DNA of 64,000 bases from Poriferisphaera corsica (GTDB lineage Bacteria > Planctomycetota > Phycisphaerae > Phycisphaerales > Phycisphaeraceae): positions 3,580,175 to 3,644,174 of the forward strand of contig NZ_CP036425.1 of the NCBI RefSeq assembly GCF_007747445.1, given 5' to 3'. Under the pieces are notes generated by a model. That model searched no databases. It was given only the letters and a program-made list of their open reading frames with translations, and was not told where the DNA came from. This document shows, in pieces, positions 39,012 to 62,774 of this stretch. The first letter of the stretch is position 1. Each line of letters begins with the position of its first letter. Both the position numbers and the translations under genes were made by a program.

Positions 39012-39012
39012 G

Positions 39013-39708: not shown

Positions 39709-39739
39709 CCACACGACCTCCATGGCTCATTATTGATGA

Positions 39740-41415: not shown

Positions 41416-41449
41416 ACAAAAAAACGCCTCAGCTCATCGCAAAGACGTT
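41416..41449 (-). terminator. Terminator for the 57-codon gene
   Basis: On the minus strand an 11-bp stem with one mismatch (AACGTCTTTGC/GCTGAGGCGTT with G-U pairs) is followed by seven T. It begins about 70 bases past the stop of the small gene at 41519. Confidence 0.7.
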
Positions 41450-41518
41450 ACAACACTATTCAGTCTGCTTAAATCCGTACTTTTTCTCATATCGCTATGT
41501 CATATTGAGACTTACAGG

Positions 41519-41692: not shown

Positions 41693-41982
41693 TTTCACTT
41701 CCTACCTTTGCTACCCGCAACCGCAGCCACGTATTACTTTAAAGACCAATAAAACATCAGCAACCACCATGCCAAGCCAATCCGTATAAACCCGCCGCCA
41801 ATACAGCATCACCCCATTCCCCCGCGACTCACTGCAATCAACGCGCACACAACACCCCTTCCCTCTTCTAAAATCGCGCTAATTCCTCTGGATAAGCCAG
41901 CCCCCATTTTCCCACACCCCCTCAGCCGTGTAACCTATTGGCTTCCACCGACATCACTCAGCTTTGAGGAGTAACCCCACCC

Positions 41983-43305: not shown

Positions 43306-43340
43306 TCTCAAGTTAGACAACAAAAAACTAGATCATCAAA

Positions 43341-43367
43341 CCCACATCTCCACGATGTGGGTTTTTT
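43341..43367 (+). terminator. Terminator after the DUF1015 gene
   Basis: CCCACATC-TCCAC-GATGTGGG, a perfect 8-bp stem followed by six T. Confidence 0.9.
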
Positions 43368-43406
43368 CATTGACCACCATCATCAACTCGCTATCATTTT
43401 TTCTTC

Positions 43407-44015: not shown

Positions 44016-44079
44016 CCATCATCCAAAAGAAAAATATCATGGTATTCTGACATTTATCAGGAACCGCTTGCGTCTAACA

Positions 44080-44952: not shown

Positions 44953-44967
44953 ATTACTCCATTCAAA

Positions 44968-46410
44968 TCACCGCCTGCGCCGCTCATCACGGCCTGCTAC
45001 CTCAACAATCTCCTCTGCCTCCTCCACGACCGCCAAATCACCAAACCCATCCCAATCATACAACATTTCAAATCGCATCCCTTCATGATTCGCCCCCTTC
45101 GCAAACACCTTGAATCTCACCGCAGGCTCCATCTCCTTCGCGCTGATCCAAACCTCTTGATACCCCGCACCACCTTCCTGAATCTCAAACTCATACCGAT
45201 ACTTCTCGCCATCCTTACCTTGATACCACCACACATCTTCATCCTTCGTTGTGAATCGCTTCTCACCAATCCGATCCATCTTCACATTCATCTCAAACTT
45301 CAACCGCCTCATTTCCTCTTTCAGCACGCTCTCTCCCTGCCACAACAATCCGCCCCCAGCCCCACCTTCACCACCTCCAGTTTGGCCATGCTTCTTAAAT
45401 AGTTCCCAAACCATTTCACCTAAAAACAATGTTTCCAGTTGCATCTCACCAAAATCATCAAACCCTAGCCCCATCACATAATCCACCCAGTATCTTTCCA
45501 AATCACGCATCTTCACCCCATTAAACGCCGATGCATATGCCTGCCGATGTGTACGCCCTCTACCAATCACTCTCAAATATTTTTCAAAGGCATCTCGCAC
45601 CGCTTGCTTCTCATGTTGCATAAAAAAATGCACGACCAACCACGATTGAGTGTACTGATGCTTCCCACCTTGCATCTTGCTTGATACGCGAGCTCGCCTT
45701 CCCCCCACACGCTTACGCATATTCTTCGCCCACTTCTCGTTCGTCATCTTGAACAGATCATCAAGACGAATAAACGCACCTCGTTTGACCGCATCTCGCA
45801 TTGACCTGACACGATCCATATCCACCACGCCTTCGACAAATCGCCCTTCAACAAACCAGCTCGTATCAAAATATTCCGCCAGCCCCTCATTCATCCATGT
45901 CGGCAAACGATCTCCCATAAACTGATGAGCCGCCTGATGAAACGCTTCATGCCTCAACACACCCATCGTCCCACTCTCCGACCACCCTTCAACCGTCACC
46001 ACCAAACCATCCACGCCCCACCCCGGCACAAACATCGCACCCGCATGCCGCGCATCAATCCCCTGACGCTTCAAAAAATTCAACATATCCTGCCGCGTCG
46101 CGAACAAATACGCATTATTTCGCCCGCTTTTGCGGACATCATACCCCGCAAAAAATTCTATATAAGCTTCATAAACCTCATCTAAATGCTCAACGTATTT
46201 CTCAACCGCCTCGCGTTCCAGATTGGTGTAAACCTTGTAATGCTCACTCTCCCAGCTCGTCATATTCTGCTTTGTAATCGACCGCTGACGTTCACGCCTC
46301 CCAGTCCGCTGCCCATACAAATCTCCCCCAACACCGAACATAACCCCTAACACAAGCATAGACACAGCCGCCCACCTGATAACATCATCACAAATCATCT
46401 TGCCCATCAT
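44968..46410 (-). CDS. DUF1570 family secreted metalloprotease-like protein
   Basis: A 480-residue protein with an N-terminal hydrophobic helix (WAAVSMLVLGVMFGVGG), likely a signal peptide or anchor. The gluzincin site is HEAFH (His154, Glu155, His158) with the third ligand in WMNEGLAEYFD, typical of DUF1570, a family common in planctomycetes. Two further helical regions and a Gly-rich linker (GGGEGGAGGG) precede the C-terminal domain. GGTGAGG lies just before the ATG at 46410. It probably cleaves proteins outside the cytoplasm; substrate unknown. Confidence 0.85.
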   Translation of the reverse strand: MMGKMICDDVIRWAAVSMLVLGVMFGVGGDLYGQRTGRRERQRSITKQNMTSWESEHYKVYTNLEREAVEKYVEHLDEVYEAYIEFFAGYDVRKSGRNNAYLFATRQDMLNFLKRQGIDARHAGAMFVPGWGVDGLVVTVEGWSESGTMGVLRHEAFHQAAHQFMGDRLPTWMNEGLAEYFDTSWFVEGRFVEGVVDMDRVRSMRDAVKRGAFIRLDDLFKMTNEKWAKNMRKRVGGRRARVSSKMQGGKHQYTQSWLVVHFFMQHEKQAVRDAFEKYLRVIGRGRTHRQAYASAFNGVKMRDLERYWVDYVMGLGFDDFGEMQLETLFLGEMVWELFKKHGQTGGGEGGAGGGLLWQGESVLKEEMRRLKFEMNVKMDRIGEKRFTTKDEDVWWYQGKDGEKYRYEFEIQEGGAGYQEVWISAKEMEPAVRFKVFAKGANHEGMRFEMLYDWDGFGDLAVVEEAEEIVEVAGRDERRRR

Positions 46411-46441
46411 AAACCTCACCTGCCTCATTCAAAACTTAAGA

Positions 46442-48481
46442 TTACTGACCGTCCAACCCCTCATCTCGAAGCGTTTTCTTGATATTCATCTCGGCAAGCC
46501 GAATTGTCGCATGATCCATCGCTGTCATCGCCTCCTGAAATTCATCCCCATTCGGCCCATCCGCATCAATATACCCTTGAACTTTCGCCATATGATCGTC
46601 TATCTCGCGCTTATACCCCTCGTCAATCTCATCCGCCACCCGCTCAAGTTGCTTCTTGATATTCCGAATATCCAACCGCGAATTCATCCGCAGATCAATC
46701 AGCCGGTGCATATTCATATCCTCCACTGCATGCTCAAAGCCTTCTTTCTCCATCAACTCCACCTCATCACGTGTCAGCCCATGATTCGGGATGATCTGGA
46801 TCGACGCACGCTTACCACTCCTCACCTCCGTTGCCATCACATTGAGCACCCCATTCGCATCCACCAAAAACATCACCTCAATCTTCGGGAGCCCCGCCGG
46901 CATCGCCGGTATCCCCCTTAGCTCAAATTCACCTAAGCTCCGACAATCCTCAACCAACTCTCGCTCGCCCTGCAATACATGAATCTTCACATTCGTCTGC
47001 CCATCCACATACGTCGAGAAAATCTCTGTCGCCCGAGTCGGAATCGTCGTATTACTCGTAATCAGTTTCGCAACCGCGCCCCCCATCGTCTCAATCCCCA
47101 ATCCCAACGGAATCACATCCAGCAATAACATGTCCTGCTTCACACCCATCAGCACCGCCCCCTGCACCGCCGCACCCATCGCCACCACTTCATCTGGGTT
47201 CAATGCCGTATAGCACTGCACACCAAAATATTCGCTCACCTTCTGCCGTACATACGGGATGCGCGTCGAACCACCTACCATCACCACCCGCTCTACCTCA
47301 TCAGCGCTTAAACCTGCACCCTTCAGCGCCTTGCCACACGCCACGAGCGTCTTCGCCACCCACCCATCAATCATCCCCTCAAACTCATCCCGCTTCACCA
47401 CCCGCTCATAAACCTGCCCTTCGCCCACCTGGACCTCAACCCGCGCCTCCATCTCATTCGACAGCCGAATCTTCATCGCCTCTGCAAAGTTACGAAACGC
47501 TTGCCGGGTGCTCGCTGGAAACTGCACCGCCTTCCCATCGAAAAACTGTTCCCGAATCTCGCCCTGCATCATCTCCACCAGCAGCCGATCCACATCATCC
47601 CCACCCAAATGCGTATCCCCCGCCGTCCCTAATACTTGATCAACACTCCCCCCCTCACCCCCACGATTCAGCTTCATAATCGAAACATCAAACGTCCCGC
47701 CCCCCAAATCATAAACCGCCACCGTCCCCCCCCTGTTCGTATCATCCCCCCCCTGTTCGTCAGACGCACCTTCCAAATCTGCCCCTGACCCGTCGCGCAA
47801 ATCATCAGCTCCACTTTCACATGCTTCCGGATTCACCTTCACATTCAAGCTCACATCGCCCCCGGAAGATCCCCCCGTAGAGATTCCGCTTACAAGCGAT
47901 ATCCCACTGCTTTCTGATTCCTCTTCATCTTTACTGCCACCTGAAAGTCCTAACCCATACGCCAGCGCCGCCGCCGTAGGCTCATTCACGATCCGCACCA
48001 CATCCAACCCCGCCAGCCGCCCCGCATCCCGCGTTGCCTGCCGCTGCGCATCATCAAAATACGCCGGCACAGTCACCACTGCCTTTTTCACAGCCTCACC
48101 CAATTCACGTTCAGCCTGTCCCTTCAACTCCCCCAAAATCATCGCACTAATCTCCTGCGGACTTACCACAGCCTTGCCTACATGCACCCGAGCCGTATCC
48201 TGAGCACCCGCCACCACCTCATAAGCCAAATACCCAAGCTCCCCCTCAATATCCTTTAACCCTCGCCCCATCAAACGTTTAGCACTATGTATCGTCCGCT
48301 CCGGATACTCCACAGCATGCCGTCGCGCCTCACCGCCGATCGCTTCAACATCACCCTCCACACTCAACCTCACAACGCTCGGCAAGCTCTCGCCCAATAT
48401 CCGAGGCCCCTTCTCATCACAATAAGCCACCAACGAATTCGTCGTCCCTAAATCAATCCCAATGATCTTCTCTTTACGCAC
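46442..48481 (-). CDS. Hsp70 family chaperone, HscA-like, with a lineage-specific insertion
   Basis: A 679-residue Hsp70. The nucleotide-binding domain has [30 protein letters not shown] and [13 protein letters not shown]; the substrate domain and helical lid follow. Several blocks ([18 protein letters not shown]) are closer to HscA, the iron-sulfur assembly chaperone, than to DnaK; that subfamily call is tentative. About 70 low-complexity residues (180-250) interrupt the domain between AYGLGL and GGTVAVYD. Part of them is encoded by a dispersed DNA repeat. No DnaJ/HscB gene is adjacent. Confidence 0.88.
47725..47803. repeat. Copy of the 53-bp C-rich repeat inside the Hsp70 gene
   Basis: TC(8)TGTTCGT occurs twice, 20 bases apart (47725 and 47745). 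The second runs on through CAGACGCACCTTCCAAATCT and GCCCCTGACC, matching the two copies at 49328-49434. The insertion keeps the reading frame and supplies residues about 228-250 of the chaperone's extra segment. Confidence 0.7.
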
Positions 48482-48817
48482 GATTCATGACTCCCATCGC
48501 AGCCGCTCAGCTTTCCCCATCGCAGCCACTGAGTTTTATTCTCAATCACTCACCTATTATAGTGAACCTTCAAACCCCCACACATCCCCATCCCCCCCGT
48601 ACTCCCCCTCCTCTACCTCGCGATCACTCGCCACTCCCTCATTCACTTACCTCACCCGCTCACCCCGCAATTTGTTCCAACAACCCCACCGGTCAATCAA
48701 TACGTTGTTGATTGTCTAGCTGGAAATTGGATGCTCAACAGCAATCCAACGTTCGACACGCTCTCTTACGAAACGACCCACTGGTCATCGAGCCCAGTGT
48801 AAAATTGACGCATTAAA

Positions 48818-49345
48818 ATGTTCGAAATCACTGCACAAACCGTCTTTCACGCCTCCCACACCATCCGCCTCCCCGATGACTCCTTCGAGCCCATCCACGC
48901 CCACGACTGGGTCATCACCGCAACCATCGCATCCGAAACCCTCGACGACATCGAAACCGTCATGGATTTTCACATCCTCGAACAGTACCTCAAAGACATC
49001 ACCGCCCCCTTCGATAACCAACACATCAACGACATCCCACCCTTCTCACTCCCCAAACCAGCCCGCGCAAACACCTCAGACTCAGAGTTTCCGGGGGTTC
49101 CGGGGGTTCCGGGGGTTCCGGGGGTTCCGGGGGTTCCGGGGGTTCCGGGGGTTCCGGGGGTTCCGGGGGTTCCGGGGGTTCCGGGGGTTCCGGGGGGGGC
49201 GAACCCCTCCGCCGAACGTGTCATTCAGCACATCGCCCTCGAACTCATCAAAAAACTCCCTCCCAACATCCACCTCGTCTCCGCCACAACCACTGAAGCT
49301 CCCAACTGCACCGCCACCTACCGTCCATCCCCCCCTGTTCGTTAG
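48818..49345 (+). CDS. 6-carboxytetrahydropterin synthase (QueD)-like protein with a tandem-repeat loop
   Basis: A T-fold protein of the QueD/PTPS family, 175 residues. Zinc ligands are His14 (FHASH), His27 and His29 (IHAHDW); further family blocks are VMDFHILEQYL, PFDNQHINDIPPF, NPSAERVIQHIA and TTTEAPNCTATYRP. The Cys four residues before the HxH motif in QueD is Phe here; a Cys sits near the end instead (EAPNC). About 35 residues of FPGVPGVP type, encoded by a 9-bp minisatellite, fill the loop before NPSAE. Queuosine-precursor synthesis or another pterin step is possible. The last few codons read into the 53-bp repeat. Confidence 0.8.
   Translation: MFEITAQTVFHASHTIRLPDDSFEPIHAHDWVITATIASETLDDIETVMDFHILEQYLKDITAPFDNQHINDIPPFSLPKPARANTSDSEFPGVPGVPGVPGVPGVPGVPGVPGVPGVPGVPGVPGGANPSAERVIQHIALELIKKLPPNIHLVSATTTEAPNCTATYRPSPPVR
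49089..49196. repeat. 12-copy 9-bp minisatellite inside the QueD-like gene
   Basis: Twelve perfect tandem copies of TTCCGGGGG, beginning at 49089 and ending in a run of eight G at 49192-49199. Nine bases per unit keeps the frame, adding Gly-Val-Pro repeats. All other frames are also open, producing several spurious ORFs. Such perfect arrays change length readily by slippage. Confidence 0.95.
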
Positions 49346-49434
49346 ACGAATCTTCCAAACCCGCCACTGACCTGCAACAATCCCCCCCTGTCCATCAAAC
49401 TAAAACTTCCAAAATCCGCCCCCGACTTGCAGCA
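49328..49434. repeat. Tandem pair of 53-bp C-rich repeats
   Basis: Copy 1 at 49328-49380 reads TC(7)TGTTCGTTAGACGAA, then TCTTCCAAACCCGCCACTGA and CCTGCAACAA. Copy 2 at 49381-49434 is diverged but collinear. The first copy supplies the stop codon of the QueD-like gene. Together with the copy at 47745 this is a three-member family in the window. Confidence 0.75.
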
Positions 49435-49459
49435 ATCCCATACCAATAACTCTTTCAAG

Positions 49460-49480
49460 CCCACGACCGCCGGTCGTGGG
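49460..49480. other. Perfect GC-rich hairpin
   Basis: CCCACGACC-GCC-GGTCGTGGG, a 9-bp stem with a three-base loop, lies just past the repeat pair and about 115 bases after the QueD-like stop. No T run follows. Its ACCGCCGGT core also occurs in the hairpin at 6321 (minus strand). Confidence 0.45.
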
Positions 49481-49735
49481 GTGTGCTTCAACCCCGCTAT
49501 CCATTGCCTGCAACAACTTCACAGTTCGTCATATAGCCGGAATCACATCTGATCACGGGCCGCATCCCCCCACACACCAAACGCCAACCCCACCTTCTAA
49601 TCATCCGCTGCATCCACATCCCCCATATCCCCCACATCCCCCCACATACATCATTCACCTCTTGACCCATCTCCCTCTCTCACCGACAATCAACCCCATA
49701 ACAAAACCTCCAACCCCGCATTCCAAGGGCCAGAC

Positions 49736-50359
49736 ATGCAAACTTCCACATACAAATTCGCAAGTAAGCTCCTCCTCTTGACACTCATTCTCACCCTCTC
49801 CGCCTGCATGCTTCCGCAAAACACGAATACCAAACCGATCCCCACTTGCTCACTCTCCGCCCCCGGCATCGCCGTGTTCTCAAAACACCGCACCGATCGT
49901 CCCGGTCAATGGCTCTTCAACTCTCTCACCATCTACTACCAATCAGCAACCCCGCAAACCCTCAATAACATCGCCCTACTTACTCCTAACACCGACAAAC
50001 CTATTCCTCTCGCCCACCTCACCCCACACACCCTCTTCGAGCACGCCCAAATCTCACCCGCCACCGACTACACCCTCTACCGCTTTCCTGAGCTCACCCC
50101 ACCACAAGACGAGATCTACATCGCTCGCCTCCCCTACGCCAACTCATCCGACACCTATTTCTTCCTCACGACCAAAGACGAGATCCTTCTATTCAGCGCT
50201 TCGATGAATCAGACCCTCCGCAATAAAGATCTCCTTCAACTCCATGACCTGAAAACCAGCCAAGCCTACCAAATCCCCTTCACGAACAATCAAATCAAAT
50301 CCCTCACTCAGCAATACAACTTCATCAAAATCCAAGCCATCAAACCAACCACCTATTAA
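49736..50359 (+). CDS. Hypothetical lipoprotein
   Basis: A 207-residue product with a clear lipoprotein signal: hydrophobic core LLLLTLILTL and lipobox LSAC. The mature domain has no motif that I recognise; it is rich in Thr, Leu and Pro with predicted beta character. It stands alone after a non-coding, C-rich stretch of about 390 bases holding the 53-bp repeats. No ribosome binding site is obvious before the ATG at 49736. Confidence 0.68.
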   Translation: MQTSTYKFASKLLLLTLILTLSACMLPQNTNTKPIPTCSLSAPGIAVFSKHRTDRPGQWLFNSLTIYYQSATPQTLNNIALLTPNTDKPIPLAHLTPHTLFEHAQISPATDYTLYRFPELTPPQDEIYIARLPYANSSDTYFFLTTKDEILLFSASMNQTLRNKDLLQLHDLKTSQAYQIPFTNNQIKSLTQQYNFIKIQAIKPTTY

Positions 50360-50390
50360 TACAAATCAAATTCTAACCCTCGATCACTCA

Positions 50391-51731
50391 TCACACACTG
50401 AATACCGCATCCCACGTCCACTCATCTCTCACCCATGTTGGCATGCACCCCGCCTTCTCCATTGATTCAACCACACGCTGTCGACACTCACCACAAGGCG
50501 TATTTTCATACGCAAATATCATCAATCTCAACAACTTTCCATCACATCGCCCTTGCAACAAATCAACAAGATCCAAAACCTCATCATGCATATCAAACGC
50601 GTCATCAAATACGCTTAACCCTGCCACTAATTCATGCTCATCACCATCCAAAAAATTGCGTTTAAATAAGCGATAAACCCCATCCACCACATCTTCTTTC
50701 TTCCTCAACTTCGCCAACCCAATCTCACGCAACCTTTCATCTTTCACATGCCCTAATGCGTTATACGTCATCCGCCGCAACTCACGATCATCATCAGCCA
50801 ACCATCCCAGAATCCGATCATCTATTTGCAGCATCTCTCGCAAGCCGAATACCGCCAAATACTTCTTTAGTTTCGCTACATCCTCCTCACCGCGCATTGC
50901 ATACCTCACCATTTCCAACGCGTCCTCATCTGCCGCCTTCCCCCAGTTCGCCAGCCGTATATCTGCAATACGCTTCGCACTGCCATCATTTATCATCTTC
51001 ACAATTTCCTCACCCCGCGTATCCTCCCATCGCAGCCCATTCGTACGTTCTCCACACCATCGCTCTCGTAATTGCTCAACAACATCTAAATACCGCTTAA
51101 CCCCCACCTTTTCTTCTTTCACCTTATCTAATATACGATTAGCCTTGCCCTTACCAAATTTCTCGTCATACCATCTTACCACCACATCATCTTCCGACCG
51201 ATCATGATCCTCAAGCAACCATTTGCCTATTGCATCACACACAAATATAAGCCCCGCCTCACCATCCATCGAAACAATCTCATCCCACCCCAAAAACCAG
51301 CCCGAATCTTCATCGTATCCAAACATCTCATACACCCACCCCTTCATCTGTTTATCCCCTCGCCCATACAAAACAACAGCGACTTCTCTTCTTCGCTTCT
51401 CATGCCACGATCGCTCAACCCAAATCTGTGGCACATCACTCAACGACAACAACCGCTCCGCCACAATATTCAGCGCGCCCGCCTTCTCAGCAATACCACA
51501 CATCCATTCTGTCCGCCCCTCCTCAACCTGCGGCCAATAACTAAAATCAAACAAACACCCCGTCACAATCATCTCTGTCAGATCATTCCCATCACAATCC
51601 ACCGCCCCATGCTTCTCAACATGTAATCTCACCCGCCCAAGCCCCTTCCGCATCCCATCCCAAAACGAATCCCGACTCAGCGGCAACTCATACTGTTGCT
51701 CATCCCAACACACATGCTCAAATACACTCAT
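50391..51731 (-). CDS. Hypothetical protein, possibly HEAT-like
   Basis: A 446-residue soluble protein with many Trp, Asp and Arg. The C-terminal half (from about residue 270) looks helical and repeat-like, e.g. DDRILGWLADDDRELRRMTY and LRKKEDVVDGVYRLFK, suggesting degenerate HEAT units. The N-terminal half is unassigned. No signal peptide or membrane helix is visible. Family unknown. Confidence 0.65.
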   Translation of the reverse strand: MSVFEHVCWDEQQYELPLSRDSFWDGMRKGLGRVRLHVEKHGAVDCDGNDLTEMIVTGCLFDFSYWPQVEEGRTEWMCGIAEKAGALNIVAERLLSLSDVPQIWVERSWHEKRRREVAVVLYGRGDKQMKGWVYEMFGYDEDSGWFLGWDEIVSMDGEAGLIFVCDAIGKWLLEDHDRSEDDVVVRWYDEKFGKGKANRILDKVKEEKVGVKRYLDVVEQLRERWCGERTNGLRWEDTRGEEIVKMINDGSAKRIADIRLANWGKAADEDALEMVRYAMRGEEDVAKLKKYLAVFGLREMLQIDDRILGWLADDDRELRRMTYNALGHVKDERLREIGLAKLRKKEDVVDGVYRLFKRNFLDGDEHELVAGLSVFDDAFDMHDEVLDLVDLLQGRCDGKLLRLMIFAYENTPCGECRQRVVESMEKAGCMPTWVRDEWTWDAVFSV

Positions 51732-52843
51732 TCTTTACCCTCAAACATCATCCAAAAAATCTATCGTTATCAACACACCTCCCATTCTACAAATCACGTC
51801 CTCATCTCCCACTACAATCTTTCTTCGCAATTAAACATTCATTAGCCAAAGCAACCTCTTCCCCATCAATCCACACCATATCACACTCGACCTCCTATAC
51901 ACATCACGCTTCTAAATGAAAACTACTTGTCCAGCTTCCCACCCTATCTCATGGTTAGTTGATTCATCTCAGTCACAATTATTCACATCCCTACTATTCT
52001 TCGCACTCATCATCTACTTCCCCTGCCAACGTCACCTCCATTCCTAAATCCGAAAACGATTCCACATTCAAACAATGAAATCAGCATGTTTGCTAACCTT
52101 CGAACCTTCCACTCCACCACCACTCCACTCCACCAATACACTTACCATCAACCGCCCAATCAACAAGCTATCAACCAAATTGAAATTGAGTCACACCCAC
52201 TTCGCAGTTCACCAAAATCGTGTTCATGCGCACAATCTTTTTTTGACGCGCGCATTTGTGCGCAAATTCACTCGTGGATTACCTGTGTTTTTAACCATTC
52301 TTCACCTCAAACGCGCCAAACCTCGCCCCTTTCTCTTCAGAATTGACGATTTCAGGCCAATTTCTCGCTGTTTCTAAAATTTCATATAACCCGTTCTTGA
52401 AACTTAGGTTGCATCAAAAATAACACCCAAACGATGCTTCTGTGCGCGCCAAGACGCTTTATTTTTTCTGTCCGTCTTCCGAACAGATCGTGCGCACGCA
52501 GATGTCCGAACACGCTCTTTTCTGTGCGCTCATGACAGATCATTCGCTCCTAAAAAACAACCTCAAAACATCCGCCAGCTGCCACCTATCAATCACTTCA
52601 TCGCATGGATTTCATCTCATTGCCATCTACCACCCATTTGGTCTTTTTTTATTTCCTCACCCAAACAAGCTATGCTAACGTCATCTCCCCCCCCATCCCC
52701 CCTCATCCCCCCCGCATCTCCTCCATCTTCGCTTCCTCCGTGTAACCGCACTTGACTCACTGCTCAGATAATCCAATCAATCACACCATCGACCAAACGT
52801 CTACATTCTGTCCCCCGCAACCCTCCTAAGTCATTAAACAAAA
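51732..52843. other. 1.1-kb gap with GTGCGC-rich repeats and poly-C tracts
   Basis: No confident gene. Between about 52205 and 52540, TGTGCGC/GCGCACA words recur at least six times, twice beside CCGAACA. C runs of eight, six and seven (52687-52713) lie about 130 bases before the purine permease gene. The 100-codon frame at 52075-52377 looks fortuitous. The right end presumably contains the permease promoter; I could not fit a purine riboswitch. Confidence 0.5.
52382..52543 (-). CDS. Possible small ORF (53 residues)
   Basis: A minus-strand frame starting MICHERTEKSVFGHLRAH and ending in a hydrophobic stretch (IVWVLFLMQ). AGGAG lies three bases before the ATG, which is rather close. It overlaps the GTGCGC repeats, so the Arg/Thr/Glu/Lys pattern may merely reflect the repeated DNA. 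Weak candidate. Confidence 0.2.
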   Translation of the reverse strand: MICHERTEKSVFGHLRAHDLFGRRTEKIKRLGAHRSIVWVLFLMQPKFQERVI

Positions 52844-54244
52844 ATGCTTAACAAAATTTTTCAATTGCAGGACAACAACACCAATGTCCGCACCGAAGTA
52901 CTCGCAGGCATCACCACCTTCCTCACCATGGCCTATATCATCTTCGTTCAGGCCAACCTCATGTCCTCCTCCGGCATCGAAAGCGGAGCCGCCATCATGG
53001 CCACATGCCTCGCCTCCGCTTTCGCCACCCTCCTCATGGGACTCTGGGCCAAATACCCCATCGCACTTGCACCCGGCATGGGCGTAAATGCTTATTTTGC
53101 CTACACTTTGATTCCTGCACTCCAGGAAGAGGGCTACGCCGCCCCCTGGCAGGTCGGTCTCGGTGTTGTCTTCGTTGCCGGCCTCGCCTTCATCCTACTC
53201 ACAGCCGTCGGCATCCGTGAAACTATCATGAATGCCATCTCACGCTCCATGAAAAACGCCATCGCCGTCGGCATCGGCCTCTTCATCGCCTTCATCGGCC
53301 TCAAAAATGCAACCGTAATTGCCCCGCACGCAGCTACTTACATCACGCTCACTGATAACCTTCTCAACCCCGACCTCGCGGTCTTCCTTGTCGGCCTCTT
53401 TGTCGCCGCCGCGTGTCACGATCGTAAAATCAAAGGCAGCATCCTTTTAGGTATCCTCGCGTCCTTCATCACCGCCATTGCCCTAAAGAATATCCTACCC
53501 ATGACCGCTTGGGCGGAGAGTGATTTCGTCACCAATTCCGCACTCATGCAGCAGTTCACACTCACCCACGTCACTGAAAACGGCATCCTCGAAACCCCAC
53601 CCAGTATCATGCCCACATTGCTGCAAATGGATATAGCCGCAGTCTTTAGCACATTCGTCTTCCCCTTTGTCATCATCTTTCTGTTCATCGACATGTTCGA
53701 CACCATGGGCACCCTGATCGGCGTCTCCGAGCAGGCAGGCTTCGTCAAAGATGGCAAAATCCCACGCGTCGGCAAAGCCATGGGCGCAGACGCCCTCGGC
53801 ACCACCGTCGGGGCGACGTTAGGTACTTCAACCGTAACGGCTTACATCGAATCCGCTGCGGGTGTCGAACAAGGCGGCCGCACAGGATTAACCGCAGTCG
53901 TCGTCGCCATCGGCTTCCTTTTAGCCATCTTCTTCACCCCGGTCATCCAGATCATCGCCTCTTACCCATCCATCACCGCCCCTGCCCTGGTCATCGTCGG
54001 GGCAATGATGATCCGTAACGTTGTTCGCATTGACTGGGACGACTACTCCGAATCCATCCCAGCCTTCCTCATCATCGTCGGCATCCCGTTCTCATTCTCG
54101 ATCGGCGACGGCATGGCGATCGGATTCATTGCCTACCCAATCATCAAAGTCCTTTCAGGCAAACGGAAAGATCTGAACTTCACAAGTGTTGTGCTGGCAA
54201 TCGCATTGCTTGGCTACTTCATCTTCTTAAGAGCAGAATTCTAA
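52844..54244 (+). CDS. NCS2 family purine permease, AzgA/PbuG type
   Basis: Proton-coupled uptake of adenine, guanine or hypoxanthine. 466 residues with about 12-14 helices. Family motifs are TEVLAGITTFLTMAYIIFV, ALAPGMGVNAYFAY, FLFIDMFDTMGTLIGVSEQ and LGTSTVTAYIESAAGVEQGG followed by RTGLTAV. The gene is complete and stands alone. It is the last gene before the strand-composition switch at about 54.25 kb; its coding strand is strongly C-rich. Confidence 0.95.
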   Translation: MLNKIFQLQDNNTNVRTEVLAGITTFLTMAYIIFVQANLMSSSGIESGAAIMATCLASAFATLLMGLWAKYPIALAPGMGVNAYFAYTLIPALQEEGYAAPWQVGLGVVFVAGLAFILLTAVGIRETIMNAISRSMKNAIAVGIGLFIAFIGLKNATVIAPHAATYITLTDNLLNPDLAVFLVGLFVAAACHDRKIKGSILLGILASFITAIALKNILPMTAWAESDFVTNSALMQQFTLTHVTENGILETPPSIMPTLLQMDIAAVFSTFVFPFVIIFLFIDMFDTMGTLIGVSEQAGFVKDGKIPRVGKAMGADALGTTVGATLGTSTVTAYIESAAGVEQGGRTGLTAVVVAIGFLLAIFFTPVIQIIASYPSITAPALVIVGAMMIRNVVRIDWDDYSESIPAFLIIVGIPFSFSIGDGMAIGFIAYPIIKVLSGKRKDLNFTSVVLAIALLGYFIFLRAEF

Positions 54245-54363
54245 TCATTGATTAGAAGGCAATATTCATTCTCACTGAATCTGCAAATGCGGCGTATCGT
54301 GCTTCAACTAGGAAATAGGGGAAATAGAAAACCATAACGCATAGGCATTTCTCAGGATGAGGT

Positions 54364-54462
54364 ATGTGCGAATGCGGTGATATGGTCGAAGGATCGAGGA
54401 AGCTGAAGAAATGGGGAAAATGCCCGTTCGTTATAGCAGAAATGAACGAAAAGTATGAATAG
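54364..54462 (+). CDS. Possible micro-ORF (32 residues)
   Basis: The frame reads MCECGDMVEGSRKLKKWGK then CPFVIAEM before ending, with three Cys. AGGA lies six bases before the ATG. It could be a tiny Cys-containing peptide or the remnant of a zinc-ribbon gene. Evidence is only spacing and composition. Confidence 0.2.
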   Translation: MCECGDMVEGSRKLKKWGKCPFVIAEMNEKYE

Positions 54463-54659
54463 GAGCGTTGAAAAGGGGTATGCGTGGGAGATGGTGAGCG
54501 TAGGATGGGCGGATGATTGACTGGGTATGAGATGGGTAAGACAAAGGGAACGAGAGAAAGCAAGGTGAGGGGGATATGGGTACTTTTAGACTGAAGTTAA
54601 AAGAAACGTTTGCTCGCTGTATCGTGAAGGCTGGTAACGATATACTAAGTGTGTAGATT

Positions 54660-54694
54660 AACGATTCGTGGCTTTGGCTGCGGATCGTTTTTTT
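54660..54694 (+). terminator. Terminator-like hairpin in the G-rich gap
   Basis: AACGATTCG/CGGATCGTT with a 12-base loop and one mismatch, followed by seven T. It is about 415 bases past the permease stop, so it may end a separate short transcript. ATCGT-N11-ACGAT at 54620-54640 is a second possible stem upstream. Confidence 0.55.
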
Positions 54695-54912
54695 ATTTCA
54701 ATACGGCTGCCCGACTCGCCTATCAACCCAGATCATCTGCTTCTTGAGATGATGTCTTGCTACTGCACACCAAAACATCATGGCAAAAAAACAAGCATCA
54801 GGACAGCGATAGTCATGCTGAGATTCTTAGAATATAGCAAGTAAGAATCTAGACTGACGCGTGAAAGCAAGCGAATGTCGACAGGAAAGAAATACGATGG
54901 AAAGAGTGGGAC

Positions 54913-55203
54913 TTAGTGATTGTCTTTACGGCGTCGCGCGATGGCGAGGGTACCAAGAAGAATGAGAATGAGAGAGCCGGGCTCGGGAACGAATGTACGG
55001 TTGCTGCTGGCGGTCGGTGCGGGGGGATCGACAGCGGGATCGATGAGATGCGGATTGATGGGGTATTGAGCGTGATCGAACTCCACAGTCTCTGAGGGGA
55101 GCTGGCTGATCTGCGAAATATTCACATTGTCTGGCTGCGCGTAGAGATACGCGCTAATGAGTAGACACAGGGCAATAGGCAGGATGAGTCGTAAACGGGA
55201 CAT
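54913..55203 (-). CDS. Minimal PEP-CTERM sorting-signal protein
   Basis: A 96-residue exported protein. The signal helix is LRLILPIALCLLISAYLYA. The C-terminus is a textbook PEP-CTERM tripartite signal: VPEPGSL, helix ILILLGTLAIA and basic tail RRRKDNH. An exosortase would cleave near PEP, as in other PEP-CTERM systems. The mature region is only about 50 residues, short for this class. GGAGAAAG directly precedes the ATG at 55203, so the longer frame to 55278 is rejected. Confidence 0.85.
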   Translation of the reverse strand: MSRLRLILPIALCLLISAYLYAQPDNVNISQISQLPSETVEFDHAQYPINPHLIDPAVDPPAPTASSNRTFVPEPGSLILILLGTLAIARRRKDNH

Positions 55204-55639
55204 CTTTCTCCTCACGGCAAACATACGCAAACCGTTCGCGAACCGACAGCAAAGCTGCGGCGGAACAACACTGGCCATTAATTCAATGAGAGAATGGACT
55301 CAACCCATGGCGGCCGGCAAAACATGGCCGGGTAAAGAAGGGGGTTCCTTCTCTCTCCTCTTGGGAGAAAAGATAGCATTGGATCAGGTGATCAACAATC
55401 GGTTTAATCTGAAATTGACGTATTTACCGTATTTAAGCAAAAAGTTGACTTAGGCTTATCAGAAAACGCTGGCGAACTGTTTGGATTATAACGATTAAAT
55501 GAGTTGTATCAGCAATCAATACAGCGGATGAATAGATTACTAAACAGTTTATATGTTTAGTCGGCGAGTACTGAGGCTGCCAAGACAGGCAACTATTGGC
55601 TGATGTTGTCTATGGAAAATCAAAGACTCGTGTTACTGT
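55204..55639. other. Intergenic gap upstream of the PEP-CTERM gene
   Basis: The dyad GTTCGCGAAC at 55234-55243 lies about 30 bases before the PEP-CTERM start and could be an operator. Further upstream, CCGGC/GCCGG words near 55314-55332 could form a leader hairpin on the minus strand. No ORF is convincing. Confidence 0.4.
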
Positions 55640-56491
55640 TTATCTCGCTGGAACAGGAGATGATGGAAATGTGGTGTATGCTGGCTCACTACGAAGATTG
55701 CGAAGGATGTCAGCGATGATGCGAGGGTCTTGGTCGGCAAGGAAGTGTCCGCCACCCATGAGAGATCGGCCGACCCAATGGGTGGGGATATCGTTGGGTG
55801 CGGTATTTTGCTCGCCGACGATGAGGTCGTCGAGACGAGCGTAAGCGCGAAGATTAAACCGACTATTCGATGAATAGTCTTTGTCGAGTGCGATAAGAAA
55901 GTCACTATTAACTTTCATATCACGAGCGTTGGGATCGAAGGAACCGAGCCAAGCGAGGGCTGCACCTTGATGAGGTGTGCAGATGGTGTAGAGGTTTTTG
56001 ATATTCAGACGTTTACGCGAGGAGGTTGGGGTTGAGCCAAAGTTGGTTGTTGTGTTTGGCGCCCATTGCGGAGGGATGGCTGCGTAACGGGCGATGAGCC
56101 CTCCCATGGAATAAGCAACAACGTCGACTTCGACGGTTTGATTGGGATCATCGGAGGGGATTTGAGATTCGAGTTGCTGGATCAGTTTGTTGGCTGATTC
56201 GTTGAAGGAGGACGAGCCAAAGAAAGCAATGGCGATAATGGGGGTCTCGGTGATGGCGGGTTTAATGAGATTATTGAGGCCTTCGGAGGAGAAACCGGGG
56301 TCCATCCAGCCGCCAAGGATGATGAGTGGGCGAGGGATAGGTTTAGGTGAGGCGGCCATGAGATCTAACTCATGCTTAGCTTTCTTCACGGTGAGCGGAA
56401 AGGAAGGATTGGTTCTACCTTTGGCGCAACCACCTAGAGCGATGAGACAAGTTGAGAGGATGCCCATCCACGAACTGATGAAGCGATTCAT
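55640..56491 (-). CDS. Alpha/beta-hydrolase (esterase/lipase-like) lipoprotein, copy B
   Basis: A 283-residue lipoprotein with lipobox LGGC (Cys22). An alpha/beta-hydrolase domain follows: LIILGGWMDPGF as oxyanion region and nucleophile Ser in VVAYSMGGLIARYAA. A candidate catalytic His lies in GGGHFLADQDPR near the end. It is closely related to the adjacent copy at 56574 and is shorter at the C-terminus. Substrate unknown; extracytoplasmic esterase or lipase is the likely role. Confidence 0.78.
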   Translation of the reverse strand: MNRFISSWMGILSTCLIALGGCAKGRTNPSFPLTVKKAKHELDLMAASPKPIPRPLIILGGWMDPGFSSEGLNNLIKPAITETPIIAIAFFGSSSFNESANKLIQQLESQIPSDDPNQTVEVDVVAYSMGGLIARYAAIPPQWAPNTTTNFGSTPTSSRKRLNIKNLYTICTPHQGAALAWLGSFDPNARDMKVNSDFLIALDKDYSSNSRFNLRAYARLDDLIVGEQNTAPNDIPTHWVGRSLMGGGHFLADQDPRIIADILRNLRSEPAYTTFPSSPVPAR

Positions 56492-56573
56492 AATAGACTC
56501 CGAGAGTAGACAGGCTATGGGTCTTGCTGGGAGTCATTATAACTGATTGATGATGTGTAACGGTGGTTATAGA

Positions 56574-57566
56574 TTATCCGCCGGAGTTTGTTGGAGACGT
56601 TGCTGGGGAAATTGAGTTGGATGGCGCAGGTGATGCGTTGTATTCAGCGATCACGGGCGAAGGTTGCGAATCCGTATCTGTATTCTTTACAAGTACGGTT
56701 GTCGGCTGAACCTGAGGAACATCTGTTTCCCATGGGAATGGTGCGGGCTTGCCGAGTGCGAGCGGGGGTTCGGATCGGAGACGGCGCGCGATGTCGGCAA
56801 GGAAACGGCGATCGGTACCGGAGTTGCCGTGTGCAGTTTGGAATGGGCGGTTGTCGACCCACCAGAGATCAACACCGTCGGGGGCGGCGTTTTCTTCGCC
56901 GACGATCAGGTCTTGAAGCCTCGTGTATGCGGTGGTGTTGTAGCGATGGTTCTCTTTAAAATCGCGGTTGAGTCTTACGATAAAATCTGAGCCGGGCATC
57001 ATGGCGCGGGCGGATGGGTCCCACCAGGCAGTCCATGCGAGTTCGGCTCCCTTGTGAGGGGTGCTGATGGTGTAGAGGTTTTTAATGTTGAGGCGTTTAC
57101 GGAATTTCTTTTCACCGGTTTCCGAAACGGGGATAGCGGCGTAGCGAGCGACAAGGCCGCCCATTGAGAAACCAATGACGTCGACTTCTACTGTTTGATT
57201 AGGGTCATCGGAAGGAAAGGCTTCATCGACTTCACGTACGGCTTTGCGAGCGGACTCGTCAAAGCCACCTGTGCCAAGGAAGTTGACTGCAATGACACGA
57301 GTGTCGCCGGTGGCGAGTTGCATACGTTTTGAGATTGAGGTTGGCACGAAGCCGGGATCACCCCAACCCCCCAGCACGACGACAGGACGATTGAGTAAGA
57401 CGGGATCTTCAGACATTTGCGTGAGTTCGACTTTTGCGTCGTCGTATGAGGTCGAGAATGATGGGTTTACACGGCTACTGAAACCACACCCGGATGATGT
57501 GATGATAAATAGAAGTGTTAAAGCGGCGAACAGGCCGCGACCGTTGATGGGTCGTGGTTTGGTCAT
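56574..57566 (-). CDS. Alpha/beta-hydrolase (esterase/lipase-like) lipoprotein, copy A
   Basis: A 330-residue lipoprotein with a signal ending SSGC and an alpha/beta-hydrolase domain. VVVLGGWGDPGF and nucleophile motif VIGFSMGGLVARYAAIP match the downstream copy, as do KRLNIKNLYTI and QDLIVGEENAAPDG. A candidate catalytic His is in TAHGNSGTDRRF. A Pro/Ser/Thr-rich tail of about 60 residues follows the domain. AGGAT lies five bases before the ATG at 57566. The pair is a local duplication on one strand. Confidence 0.78.
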   Translation of the reverse strand: MTKPRPINGRGLFAALTLLFIITSSGCGFSSRVNPSFSTSYDDAKVELTQMSEDPVLLNRPVVVLGGWGDPGFVPTSISKRMQLATGDTRVIAVNFLGTGGFDESARKAVREVDEAFPSDDPNQTVEVDVIGFSMGGLVARYAAIPVSETGEKKFRKRLNIKNLYTISTPHKGAELAWTAWWDPSARAMMPGSDFIVRLNRDFKENHRYNTTAYTRLQDLIVGEENAAPDGVDLWWVDNRPFQTAHGNSGTDRRFLADIARRLRSEPPLALGKPAPFPWETDVPQVQPTTVLVKNTDTDSQPSPVIAEYNASPAPSNSISPATSPTNSGG

Positions 57567-57885
57567 ATGAGATCCTATGTTCACCGTGCGTCATTAGCTT
57601 CTAGACGTTGCATCTAGGTGGGGGGTGTGAGTTCCTTATCAGATTGGGGAAGATCCATCTCTTGAACGTTCACGAGGTTATCGATCGCGTTTAGAGGTCG
57701 GAGGAGTACATTCAAACACTGATTTGATGCTCCTACAGCCTAGCATCCTGCTATGAATAACCGCGTTTTTTGCTCTATCGGAGTGGAACTAAAGATTTGA
57801 TCGGCTGAAAAGAGGGGCGTATTGGGGGCGACAAACCCTATGAGGGGGTGTTGATAATGTGCTGATTTGGGGAGAGGAAATAAGG
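57567..57885. other. Gap before the esterase pair
   Basis: About 320 bases with one weak hairpin, CTAGA-N7-TCTAG near 57600-57617. It presumably carries the promoter of the esterase genes. The antisense frame at 57789-58058 looks spurious. Confidence 0.4.
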
Positions 57886-58701
57886 TTATATTTTGATATT
57901 CTGGGGGAAGAAGTTTGCGGCATTCTCGAAGAGTTGTTCGGTGAGATCGGTCTGATCGATGCCGAGGATGTCTGCGATGCCGGGGAGGATATGGGCGAGG
58001 TTAGCGGGCTCATTACGAGACTTACCGTTGGGGTCTTCACCGCGAATGACGTACTCATCGGGAGGGATCATGTAGGGGGCATCGGTTTCGAGTAGAAGTC
58101 GGTTATCGGGAACGGCTTTGATGGCTTCACGCGACTTTTTGCGTGATGGGTCAAGGACGTTGCCAGCAAAAGAGAAATAGATGTGGTCGGAGAAGGTGAT
58201 GAGTTGTTTAACAATTTCGGCGGATCCTCCGAAGCCGTGGAGAAGGATGCCGGTCTCTGGGATGGATTGTGATTTGAGGATCTCGATGAGCCATGCGTGG
58301 GCTTTGATGCAGTGGATGGTTGCTGAACGGTTGAGTTTATGGGCAAGGGTGAGTTGCTCACGGAATACGCCTTCCATGAGTTCTTCATCGCGTGGGGTGA
58401 TCCATCGATCAAGGCCGATCTCACCTATCTGGGCATTAGAGGATGTTAGTTTAAATTCGAGAAGCTCAAGCCAATTATCATCGACTTCATTGATGAACCA
58501 AGGGTGAAGGCCAATGCATGGGATGATGGCGGGGTATTGATCTGGGAGTTCGAGGACAAAATCCCAGTCTTCAGGCGAGGTCGCATTGACGACGAGGTGT
58601 GTGATGCCGAGATCGAGAGCGTGCTGAATGACCTGGTCACGGTCAGAGGTAAAGGAGCCATCCTGGAGATGTGTGTGACAATCGATAATGGGATTGATCA
58701 T
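57886..58701 (-). CDS. TatD family metal-dependent hydrolase
   Basis: A 271-residue TIM-barrel nuclease/hydrolase of the TatD family. Metal-binding motifs are CHTHLQDG at the N-terminus, IGEIGLDRW, ATIHCIKA, ILLHGFGG and LLLETDAPYM. Members act as metal-dependent DNases or deoxyribonuclease-like phosphatases. The gene is isolated between the esterase pair and a secreted protein gene. Confidence 0.93.
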   Translation of the reverse strand: MINPIIDCHTHLQDGSFTSDRDQVIQHALDLGITHLVVNATSPEDWDFVLELPDQYPAIIPCIGLHPWFINEVDDNWLELLEFKLTSSNAQIGEIGLDRWITPRDEELMEGVFREQLTLAHKLNRSATIHCIKAHAWLIEILKSQSIPETGILLHGFGGSAEIVKQLITFSDHIYFSFAGNVLDPSRKKSREAIKAVPDNRLLLETDAPYMIPPDEYVIRGEDPNGKSRNEPANLAHILPGIADILGIDQTDLTEQLFENAANFFPQNIKI

Positions 58702-58834
58702 AGCGGAGCCTTTCGTGTGTTTGTGAGTTCAGGCGAAAAACTGAACTGTGGCTGCGTGGTGGATGAGGGGTTAGAGAAAATGGGCATGCTGATGATGCCC
58801 AGTGTCTATATTATTGCGGTAGAAGTTGGGTTTG

Positions 58835-59749
58835 TCACTGTTTATGCCAAGTGATTTTGTCGCCGGGGATTTTGCGGTTTACTTTTTGCTTGATGTTGAA
58901 CTTGAACAGTTGATTGAGGTTGGTGAGTCGAACGACTTTGACGGATTTGATGCGTGAAAGAGGGACGGTTTGATCGGCGAGGCCGTTGGTTGAGCCTTGG
59001 GAAGACCAGTAACGAAGGAATGCGTAGGGCTTGCCTTCGGCTTTGAGTTTGGGATCGGCGTAGTAGCCGAGGAAGATGACGGAGTGGCCGCCGCCGTTGT
59101 TCCAGGAAATGTTCATGAAGTCGCCGGGGCGGGCATGATCGGGGTTAATCACGGTGCCCATTTTTGCGTATTGAACTAGTGCGAAGTGATTTCCGAAGCC
59201 ATCGTCATTCCAGTGACCCCAGAATTTGATGCCATCATCACGACGAGAACCATCGGGCTCTTGCATGCGAAGGGCTTCGAGGCGTGTGTGGCTGAGTTTT
59301 GCTTTAGGTGAGTGCTGAGTGAAGTAGATGTTGAGGCCTTCAATGAATGCTGAGTATGAGGAGCCGGAGCAGTATGAGGTTTTGCGTGGGGCTTTGAGGA
59401 GGGATTGATTGAAGAGTGCGAGGTCGTAGCCGATGGGTGATTCGGTTGGTTTAGCTTTGATGCCGATGAAGTAGCCGCCGCCGGTGGGAGCTGAAGCTTG
59501 CACGACGTCGATACCTTTAAGGACAAGCTGATTATAGCCGGGGACATCGTGAGCGAAGGACGTAAAGTGGGCGGTATGATAGGCGGGGAGTTCGTTTTGC
59601 TCTGCTGTCAGGAGATATGTGGTTTTATCATCGGTTGTGGGCTTGGGGAGGATTTTGTCGGGTTGCTTTTCAGCGGCACATAGCGGAGCGGTGGAGAGAG
59701 TGACGAGCGTGAGAAGCGAAACGAAAAATCCGGGGCGGACGGTTGTCAT
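58835..59749 (-). CDS. Secreted protein with an NlpC/P60- or CHAP-like Cys/His pair
   Basis: A 304-residue protein with a signal peptide (FFVSLLTLVTLSTAPLCAA). Cys127 in RKTSYCSGSSYSAFIEGL and His222 in GDFMNISWNNGGGHSVIFLG have the spacing and setting of the papain-like NlpC/P60 or CHAP fold, whose members hydrolyse cell-wall peptides or amides. The overall sequence otherwise matches no family I know, so the enzyme role is inference. I begin at ATG 59749; the frame is open to 59770. Confidence 0.6.
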   Translation of the reverse strand: MTTVRPGFFVSLLTLVTLSTAPLCAAEKQPDKILPKPTTDDKTTYLLTAEQNELPAYHTAHFTSFAHDVPGYNQLVLKGIDVVQASAPTGGGYFIGIKAKPTESPIGYDLALFNQSLLKAPRKTSYCSGSSYSAFIEGLNIYFTQHSPKAKLSHTRLEALRMQEPDGSRRDDGIKFWGHWNDDGFGNHFALVQYAKMGTVINPDHARPGDFMNISWNNGGGHSVIFLGYYADPKLKAEGKPYAFLRYWSSQGSTNGLADQTVPLSRIKSVKVVRLTNLNQLFKFNIKQKVNRKIPGDKITWHKQ

Positions 59750-59903
59750 AATTGGCTGCCTTGAAAGCAAAGTTTTAAGGGGATCCGAAGTTATGCCACT
59801 GTCCCAATCTGAGGTTATTGTAACGTGAGATGGATGGCTGGATAAGTGGGAAGTTAGGAGAAGCTGGGATGCAGGCTATTGGGGGGTGGGGTACAATGTG
59901 GGG

Positions 59904-60905
59904 ATGAGTGAAAAAGAAGCAAAAAATCTGGGAAATGCGTTTGCTGTGGAGGGTAGCGGCGGTGTTTGCGGGTATTCATTTGGGTGCAACTTTTCGAAAT
60001 TGAAATACCCGGTGGAAGCTGCGGTCTGGTCGGTGTTGCCGCTGTGTGACTGGTTTGTGTTTGCGGTTGGTAAAAGTGAAGACGACACGATGGAGCGGGT
60101 GCTATCGATCAAGAATGATCCTGATCTGCCGATCGCAAAGGAACGATTTGTGATCGTGGAGACAGAGTGGCCAGCGGTACAGATTGATGGGACCGTGCTT
60201 TCAATTGAAGCTAACAAGGCATTAGATGCGGCGGAGAAAGTAGCTCAGGAGAATGGGTTGACGTGGGGGTTTTACATCCAGGCGGATGAAGTGATCCATG
60301 AGGACGACTTGAAGGCGGTGGCGGATTCGATGGTACATTGGAAAGATGTGCCGAAGGTGAAGGCGTTGCAGTTTCGGTATCATCACTTTGTGCTGGATTA
60401 TAAAACGGTTGATCCGTGGATGTATCACAAAGCGTGTCGCGTGATGCGGCTGGATGGGTCAACACGGATATTTGGTGATGCGTGCGGGCCGGGATTGCCG
60501 AACTATGAGGGGCCGAAAAATGATGGGTACCTGGATAAGAATCATTTGGGGAGTTATGTGCAGTGGGCGGCAACGCCTGCAAAGGCTGGGCACAATGTGT
60601 TTGCGAAGCGAGCAAGAGTGTTTCACTATGGGTGGGTAAAGTCGAAGGAAGATCTGGATGAGAAATTCCAGATGGTAGAGAAGTTGTGGTGGGGAACGCT
60701 TGATGAAGCGGAAAAAGAGCGTAGAAAGAATAATAAATTCGGTCGGTTTATCGAACGATACCCGTTTTTGAAGAAATTCAAAGGGTCACATCCAAAGATG
60801 GTGGATGATTTGATTGCGAAGCATGAGGAATTTGCGAAAGTGCCGAACCGGTGGCTGAACCCAAGATTTTATTTGGAAGTTTTGCGACACGGCTTCCATG
60901 GGTAA
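59904..60905 (+). CDS. Glycosyltransferase, GT-A fold (family 2-like)
   Basis: Likely transfers a sugar during surface-glycan assembly; 333 residues. The start resembles GT2 proteins (CNFSKLKYPVEAAVWSVLPL, then DWFVFAVGKSEDDT), with the Asp-containing WGFYIQADEVIHEDDL as the likely metal/nucleotide site. A C-terminal helical region follows HYGWVKSKEDL. An in-frame GTG at 59886 is a possible alternative start, and neither has an ideal ribosome site. It opens the polysaccharide block at the window end. Confidence 0.75.
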   Translation: MSEKEAKNLGNAFAVEGSGGVCGYSFGCNFSKLKYPVEAAVWSVLPLCDWFVFAVGKSEDDTMERVLSIKNDPDLPIAKERFVIVETEWPAVQIDGTVLSIEANKALDAAEKVAQENGLTWGFYIQADEVIHEDDLKAVADSMVHWKDVPKVKALQFRYHHFVLDYKTVDPWMYHKACRVMRLDGSTRIFGDACGPGLPNYEGPKNDGYLDKNHLGSYVQWAATPAKAGHNVFAKRARVFHYGWVKSKEDLDEKFQMVEKLWWGTLDEAEKERRKNNKFGRFIERYPFLKKFKGSHPKMVDDLIAKHEEFAKVPNRWLNPRFYLEVLRHGFHG

Positions 60906-60918
60906 TTCTAACTGATGA

Positions 60919-61635
60919 TTAGTATCCGGTTGAGGTGCGTTGCGGATTTGTTGCGAGCTCGCGAATTTCTTTATCATTGAGGCCCATTGAGATGGCCATA
61001 CGCAAGCGTTCTGCGCGGGAGAGATTGGCCCGCTTGGCTGTATCATCAAGAATACGGATCATGTTAAGACGTCGACGTCGGCTACAATTCCTCTTGAAAC
61101 TACCAACATCAATCAGTTTTATCGATCGATCTTTGTCGGAAATGATCATATTGCTTAATTTGCAGTCGCGAAAGACCCAGCCGCTGGTGATAAGTTTACG
61201 CATGAGCCGACTGATGGCTTGAAGGATCTGTTTGCGTTTGGCAAACGATGCAAAATTACCTGATTTTAGTTCTTGATAAGCTTGCTGGCCGGCAAATTCG
61301 GTTAGGAGATGGGCTTTACCGTTAATCAATTTTGCAGCAACGATTGGCTGGGCGGGGAGGCCTTGCTTGATGAGCTGCGTTGCACGACGTGCTTCAATTT
61401 GCGCGGGGTGTAAGCCGATAATCCAACCTAGAATCTGTCGCAATGGGATGTATTCGAATCGCTTTATCACGTAAGGCTTGCCGTGGTATTCGACGAGCCA
61501 AACACGACTACGCCGATCCTGTTTATATACTTCCTTTACGGATTGCTTGACGAGTGCGGTGAGATTTGGATGGGTATCATTACACATAGGTGCATTATCA
61601 TAGCAAGATTGATCACGACCTTGGGAACTGGACAT
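60919..61635 (-). CDS. LPS core kinase-like protein (Kdo/WaaP family)
   Basis: A 238-residue small kinase-fold protein. ATP-site Lys58 is in YVIKRF, the catalytic loop is WVFRDCKLSNMII (Asp157, Asn162) and the DFG equivalent is LIDVGS (Asp176). These fit the lipopolysaccharide-kinase/InaA group that phosphorylates sugars of LPS. An alternative ATG at 61587 is possible. Adjacent glycosyltransferases support a role in envelope glycan modification. Confidence 0.8.
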   Translation of the reverse strand: MSSSQGRDQSCYDNAPMCNDTHPNLTALVKQSVKEVYKQDRRSRVWLVEYHGKPYVIKRFEYIPLRQILGWIIGLHPAQIEARRATQLIKQGLPAQPIVAAKLINGKAHLLTEFAGQQAYQELKSGNFASFAKRKQILQAISRLMRKLITSGWVFRDCKLSNMIISDKDRSIKLIDVGSFKRNCSRRRRLNMIRILDDTAKRANLSRAERLRMAISMGLNDKEIRELATNPQRTSTGY

Positions 61636-61662
61636 ATTATTAATTGAGGACGCTGATTGCGG

Positions 61663-62748: not shown

Positions 62749-62774
62749 AGATAGTTTCGCCTTGTAAAAATAAC

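Follow-up and report, generated by a model that had tools for sequence, protein, structure and literature searches.

Among the systems that resemble the locus described here, the closest in shape are the skew N-domains of human chromosomes (PMC3320577), in which GC skew jumps abruptly upward at initiation sites, declines almost linearly between them, changes sign in mid-domain and is proportional to fork polarity, the domains being megabases long. Archaeal chromosomes may likewise carry several origins on one circular molecule, visible in skew curves, but these are few and lie next to orc1/cdc6 genes (PMC4010727, PMC4595724). In bacteria, on the other hand, one origin per chromosome is among the firmest rules of cell biology, and the control of initiation, the replichore concept and growth-rate estimates from coverage all rest on it; the DnaA-dependent oriC is recognized by a skew minimum, an intergenic position and arrays of short spaced boxes, extra skew switches are usually caused by inversions, and it has been stated that there was no evidence for even two functional origins on one natural bacterial chromosome (PMC4403523). 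Finally, the dispersed sites of the Noc/ParB type are short palindromes repeated around a bacterial chromosome that are not known to switch strand composition.

The locus considered here belongs to the 4,291,168-bp single-contig chromosome (C1) of Poriferisphaera corsica KS4 (Planctomycetota, Phycisphaerae; CP036425, PMC7783415), a cultured bacterium deposited as DSM 103958. The compositional flip found in it is one of roughly a hundred evenly spaced, origin-like switch points, nearly every one of which lies beside a copy of the same ~300-bp element, suggesting that this bacterium copies its DNA from many start sites, as eukaryotes do, rather than from one. Compared with the human N-domains, the domains measure ~35 kb, the sites carry a specific and oriented DNA element, the skew is far stronger (up to 0.9 at fourfold-degenerate, or 4D, sites) and independent of gene strand, and the pattern is superposed on a two-arm bias centered on oriC. 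Compared with the archaeal case, the sites number about a hundred, the bacterium is DnaA-bearing and the genes beside the present site are not initiators. Compared with the canonical bacterial oriC, the sites number ~107-120 instead of one, the others show neither DnaA-box enrichment nor replication genes, and the box is a different one (GYGCGCACAAA). Compared with the Noc/ParB sites, the palindromes sit within a longer, oriented element that sets the side of the switch.

The strand switch in the window and along the chromosome

The window, i.e., the whole 64,000-bp stretch analysed (C1:3580175-3644174), contains the following features:

14..64000 (no strand): nearly one full skew domain plus the start of the next; 4D skew +0.85 at the left edge, -0.9 at 36-45 kb and +0.7 to +0.9 right of 54.25 kb, the previous switch lying about 2.3 kb left of the window (C1:3577911)
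24644..28614 (no strand): gradual plus-to-minus crossing in mid-domain (cumulative maximum 25920), the inferred zone where forks meet
52206..52533 (+): origin-like element, a conserved intergenic repeat with GYGCGCACAAA boxes in the 1.1-kb gap between the minus-strand ORF 50391-51731 and the permease
52218..52273 (no strand): boxes 1-3 of the array (52218 -, 52250 -, 52256 +), the strongest of which, ATTTGCGCACAAAT, scores 19.7
52434..52533 (-): boxes 4 and 5 (52434, 52516)
52534..54350 (+): switch zone, in which a 200-bp profile shows plus-strand skew climbing from about -0.6 to positive
52844..54244 (+): xanthine/uracil-type permease (PF00860, E 4.8e-42)
54076..54230 (no strand): best estimate of the strand switch (change point 54157; cumulative minimum 54275)

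The first-pass annotation had reported a sharp, gene-independent reversal of GC skew at about 54.25 kb (53900-54600), and this observation is confirmed. The counts on which it rested are exact (11 G / 26 C at 53941-54000 and 29 G / 4 C at 54481-54540); with 4-kb flanks the skew goes from -0.47 to +0.25, the likelihood change point falls at 54157 (support 54076-54230) and the cumulative-skew minimum at 54275. The independence from gene direction also holds, pooled plus-strand skew at 4D sites being -0.77 (7 plus genes) and -0.67 (11 minus genes) between 26 and 54 kb, and +0.89 (1 plus gene) and +0.70 (6 minus genes) to the right of 54.25 kb. Taken alone, a 1-kb block permutation of the window yields only p ~0.05 (105/2000), because the window is bimodal throughout, and the real significance is genome-wide. 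Furthermore, the 2-kb profile starts at +0.35, declines smoothly through zero at ~26 kb to -0.62 at 50-52 kb and jumps to +0.25 after 54 kb, so that the reported reversal is the abrupt half of a pattern whose gradual half, the crossing at ~25.9 kb overlooked in the first-pass annotation, also lies in the window.

The first-pass annotation had interpreted the reversal as a replication-strand signature, as at an origin or at the edge of an inverted segment, and this interpretation is partly supported. The reading as an origin-like replication-strand signature is the best supported one; however, the site is not the origin of the chromosome, which lies near dnaA about 660 kb away (C1:6.3-7.9 kb), it is not the edge of an inverted segment, no sharp downward edge existing in the 2.85 Mb examined, and the element held responsible lies, at about 52.2-52.5 kb, 1.6-1.9 kb outside the interval that had been indicated.

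Chromosome-wide skew, proposed beforehand as a test of this reading, was followed over 2.85 Mb (66% of the genome), including 3.0-4.291 Mb and 0-0.14 Mb without gaps, and is a sawtooth everywhere in this portion. With 4-kb flanks, 75 upward steps of 0.3 or more and 57 of 0.5 or more were found, as opposed to 43 downward steps of 0.3 or more and none of 0.5 or more; for scale, the same measure at the E. coli oriC is 0.06. In a contiguous 1.29 Mb, 36 switches are spaced on average 35.2 kb apart with a CV of 0.28 and a minimum of 17 kb, whereas random placement gives a CV of 0.96 and a minimum near 1 kb. Inversions make equally sharp edges of both signs, and in the window the opposite crossing is spread over ~25-30 kb; the premise that the pattern stems from many inverted segments or from a faulty assembly is further contradicted by the regular spacing, by the specific element marking the sites and by the occurrence of the same pattern in an independently assembled congener, and can for practical purposes be considered refuted.

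Transcription is likewise an unlikely cause. In 837 genes of the contiguous part, called with an ad hoc gene finder, 4D-site skew goes from about +0.7 to -0.86 with position in the domain, nearly equally in plus and minus genes; position explains 68% of the variance (R2 0.68) and gene strand 1.6% (R2 0.016). Very long bidirectional transcription from each element, exposing the non-template strand, would give the observed sign of both GC and AT skew, but genes on both strands have the same plus-strand skew and gene direction is random with respect to the domain, transcripts of 15-20 kb running through genes in both directions would be needed, and neither the arm bias nor the presence of the element at oriC would be explained; this possibility is considered very improbable. 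Gene direction shows no bias with respect to the inferred fork direction in the 3.0-4.29 Mb region (40-57% in every phase bin), which is unusual beside such strong skew and counts against the replication model. Certain G-rich 8-mers, on the other hand, are over 99% strand-specific with respect to local skew sign; one of them, TGGTGAGG, is present in 365 copies in the portion examined, over 99% on the inferred leading strand, and such words could serve as markers of fork direction.

A conserved element beside the switches

The switch points themselves show neither a clear common k-mer nor an AT-rich dip, and most of the sharp ones (36 of 50) lie inside genes, so that an AT-rich or promoter-like location of the switch was rejected. 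Canonical DnaA boxes (TTATCCACA-like) were also rejected as the common feature, since they are not enriched at the switches (ratio about 1). A gapped-word test of the surroundings revealed instead the box GCGCACAA (p 2e-15), which is about 15 times denser 0.5-1.5 kb from switches than elsewhere and is enriched equally in both halves of the switch set, 92% of the switches having an exact copy within 2.5 kb. The boxes form arrays, often two in the same orientation 145-151 bp apart (~148 bp), and a profile of these arrays identifies a ~300-bp element with the conserved blocks CCATGCCAAA, GCGCGCACAAACRCG, a TTTCT-rich spacer, TACGGGTAAATCAC and TTTTGTGCGCACAAACCCGCCGCG; the best box forms the perfect palindrome TTTGTGCGCACAAA.

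In the sequence examined, the profile gave 72 hits, 66 of them within 4 kb of a switch and most of the others at the ends of the stretches examined. Of 74 switches, 62 had a hit, and the switch lay downstream of the element in 58 of 66 cases (p 2e-10). The profile was trained near switches, so that the share of switches with a hit is partly by construction, and its E-values are rough; the orientation rule, the intergenic location, the homology with oriC and the tests in a second species were not used in training. A second model, searched in the whole genome including the 34% in which skew was not followed, gives 94 distinct sites, or 107 together with the switches, and extrapolation of the contiguous spacing gives ~120. 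The elements are intergenic, with 2.5% coding overlap against 78% for the genome, and their GC content is 0.437 against ~0.49 around them, with no strong AT-rich unwinding region apparent.

The copy in the window was detected by nhmmer (C1:3632390-3632621, E 7e-8) and by model R1 (52206-52353, E 5.8e-8), and 5 of the 6 boxes scoring above 13 in a PWM scan of the 64-kb window lie at 52.2-52.5 kb. Its neighbours are a permease, PTPS, alpha/beta hydrolases and TatD, i.e., neither dnaA/dnaN nor other replication genes.

Averaged over 59 elements in their own orientation, skew is flat at -0.37 up to the element, begins to rise at it, crosses zero at +1.25 kb, levels off at about +0.3 at +3 kb and fades over 15-20 kb on each side. 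The switch lies 0.2-2 kb downstream of the element, the offset in the window being 1.6-1.9 kb. To the right of each switch G and T are in excess, the usual bacterial leading-strand sign, at oriC as elsewhere.

A plasmid, phage or structured-RNA identity of the element does not fit the data. No Rep_3-type initiator (PF01051) was found in the genome, and a typical element has no match in 50,697 phage and 72,556 plasmid records; RNAalifold yields -2.4 kcal/mol with 0 pairs showing compensatory change, and the window has no Rfam match.

The canonical origin and the congener

The gene dnaA is located at C1:1-1416, and the densest cluster of DnaA boxes in the sequence examined (5 boxes in 600 bp, C1:6984-7525) lies in a 2.25-kb intergenic gap and is followed by a very sharp switch at 7859. 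Upstream of these boxes is the same element, which aligns with that of the window over 330 bp with a score of 156, against 26±3 for shuffled sequence; the best random genomic pieces other than itself scored 95 or less, and that one lies within about 0.5 kb of another element. Furthermore, mean skew per 143 kb is mostly positive on 0-1.29 Mb, near zero in the middle and mostly negative on 2.4-4.29 Mb, as forks from a main origin at dnaA would give. A second full-length DnaA (519 aa; C1:~230516-232076) has the DNA-contact signature GRKTHSTV instead of the GRDHTTV of DnaA1; since two DnaA genes are found in nearly all of the 41 genomes of the order searched, the second copy is not supported as a genus-specific initiator. 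A single 16S rRNA gene (C1:2842364-2843872), about 1.45 Mb from oriC, suggests a slow grower.

The congener P. heterotrophicis ZRK32 (CP066225.1; PMC10945688) has at least 154 element hits. Its leading-strand 8-mers lie in the first half of the interval right of an element in 77 of 91 cases (null 50±5.5%; thinned p 4e-6), skew rises downstream in 29 of the 30 elements examined, and 14 of 23 flanking orthologues lie within 3 kb of an element in both species, all in the same orientation (chance 14%). The permease of the window represents a natural orientation test: its ZRK32 orthologue (78% identity, in the stretch designated L104) has the element in the same upstream gap but on the other strand (L104:8946-9301, -), the switch is on the other side and the skew of the permease is about +0.4 instead of -0.3 to -0.4, the opposite strand composition being attributed to the reversal of the element.

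Outside these two species, model R1 finds nothing in most other relatives and only weak hits in the genomes G021 and G037; in G021 the two loci examined show no skew step, whereas the strand of an 8-mer marker neither established nor excluded a sawtooth in two other family members, G004 and G009. However, the exact palindrome TTTGTGCGCACAAA with up to one mismatch is numerous in a few members of the family, so that related systems may exist there. In G057, of another genus of the family, 54 copies were counted (control 0), some as pairs 113 bp apart (e.g., contig C56:73355 and 73468, C58:57340 and 57453), which is likely a related system; G018 has 16 copies, the genome G072 has 10 and G015 has 9, and in G015 (contigs C6, C17, C19, C56 and C68) copies lie 244-543 bases into contigs, as if near-identical repeats broke the assembly there.

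Replication from many sites as the probable interpretation

Taken together, these data are best explained, with fairly good confidence, by the premise that the site is one of about 107-120 bidirectional replication origins spread at ~35-kb intervals along one bacterial chromosome. In this view, each element would be bound through its spaced, partly palindromic boxes by an as yet unidentified initiator, and two forks would start; over evolutionary time the leading strands would have become rich in G and weakly in T, so that skew jumps upward where leading strands begin and declines towards the next origin, because forks from neighbouring origins would meet at scattered positions in between. The one-sided offset of 0-2.5 kb may reflect the departure of a first fork on that side, whose first lagging-strand primer would become the leading strand of the opposite fork, giving an offset of about one Okazaki fragment, whereas the canonical oriC, carrying the same element plus DnaA boxes, would impose the weaker two-arm bias. 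The sequence itself establishes the sawtooth, the element, its one-sided offset, its conservation between the two species, its presence at oriC and the arm bias; that the elements fire, that bidirectional forks start at them, the order of these events and the existence of a dedicated initiator are inferred from sequence alone. The lack of DnaA-box enrichment at the other switches counts against this interpretation, insofar as initiation there would have to be DnaA-independent or make use of another box, as do the lack of an apparent strong AT-rich unwinding region, of an identified initiator and of a known bacterial precedent.

An alternative, considered unlikely, is that the elements load a strand-directional process other than scheduled replication, such as a translocase, a ParB-like sliding clamp or a repair/recombination complex, moving outward for ~15-20 kb in both directions and biasing mutation by strand while replication proceeds from oriC alone. 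The perfect palindrome, as for dimeric ParB/Noc-type binders, the dispersed nature of Noc sites and the failure to find a known initiator family (Rep_3 being absent) would be compatible with this model. However, sign and shape of the skew equal those at the DnaA-box origin, which carries the same element, and the skew has the arm-dependent offset expected of forks from oriC; end resection at breaks would expose the other strand and give the opposite sign, minus skew on the right arm is hard to produce if only rightward forks pass, and no precedent is known for so strong a synonymous-site skew without replication.

A somewhat less likely possibility is that replication does start at the elements, but by recombination- or R-loop-primed, DnaA-independent initiation as a standing alternative programme. 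Although the lack of DnaA-box enrichment and the variable offset between element and switch would be consistent with it, the conserved spacing and orientation of the boxes and their occurrence also at oriC look like a protein-assembly site, and firing would have to be frequent in nearly every generation to give 4D skews of 0.7-0.9.

A report of such a pattern in a bacterium was not found among 5.39 million open papers, subscription journals and preprints not being covered, and no bacterium is known to work in this way; neither the KS4 nor the ZRK32 paper mentions skew, and replication is not mentioned in the former, while the word occurs three times in the latter. What would be new, and is held to be probable on present evidence, is that a free-living bacterium replicates one circular chromosome from more than a hundred regularly spaced, efficiently used bidirectional origins, each marked by an oriented 300-bp element related to one at its oriC, a eukaryote-like organisation that would have arisen inside the Bacteria, at least in the genus Poriferisphaera, with a DnaA-independent or altered initiator. 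A cultured bacterium of this kind would be a direct counter-example to the one-origin rule and would offer a prokaryotic model for how multi-origin chromosomes arise and how re-initiation is prevented, as well as a cis-element through which the initiator could be isolated.

As to the genes right of the switch in the window, a small minus-strand ORF just beside it (54913-55278), read by eye, ends in a PEP-CTERM-like sorting tail, and two tandem alpha/beta-hydrolase genes of the same family (DUF676/DUF7379) occupy 55640-57584 on the minus strand.
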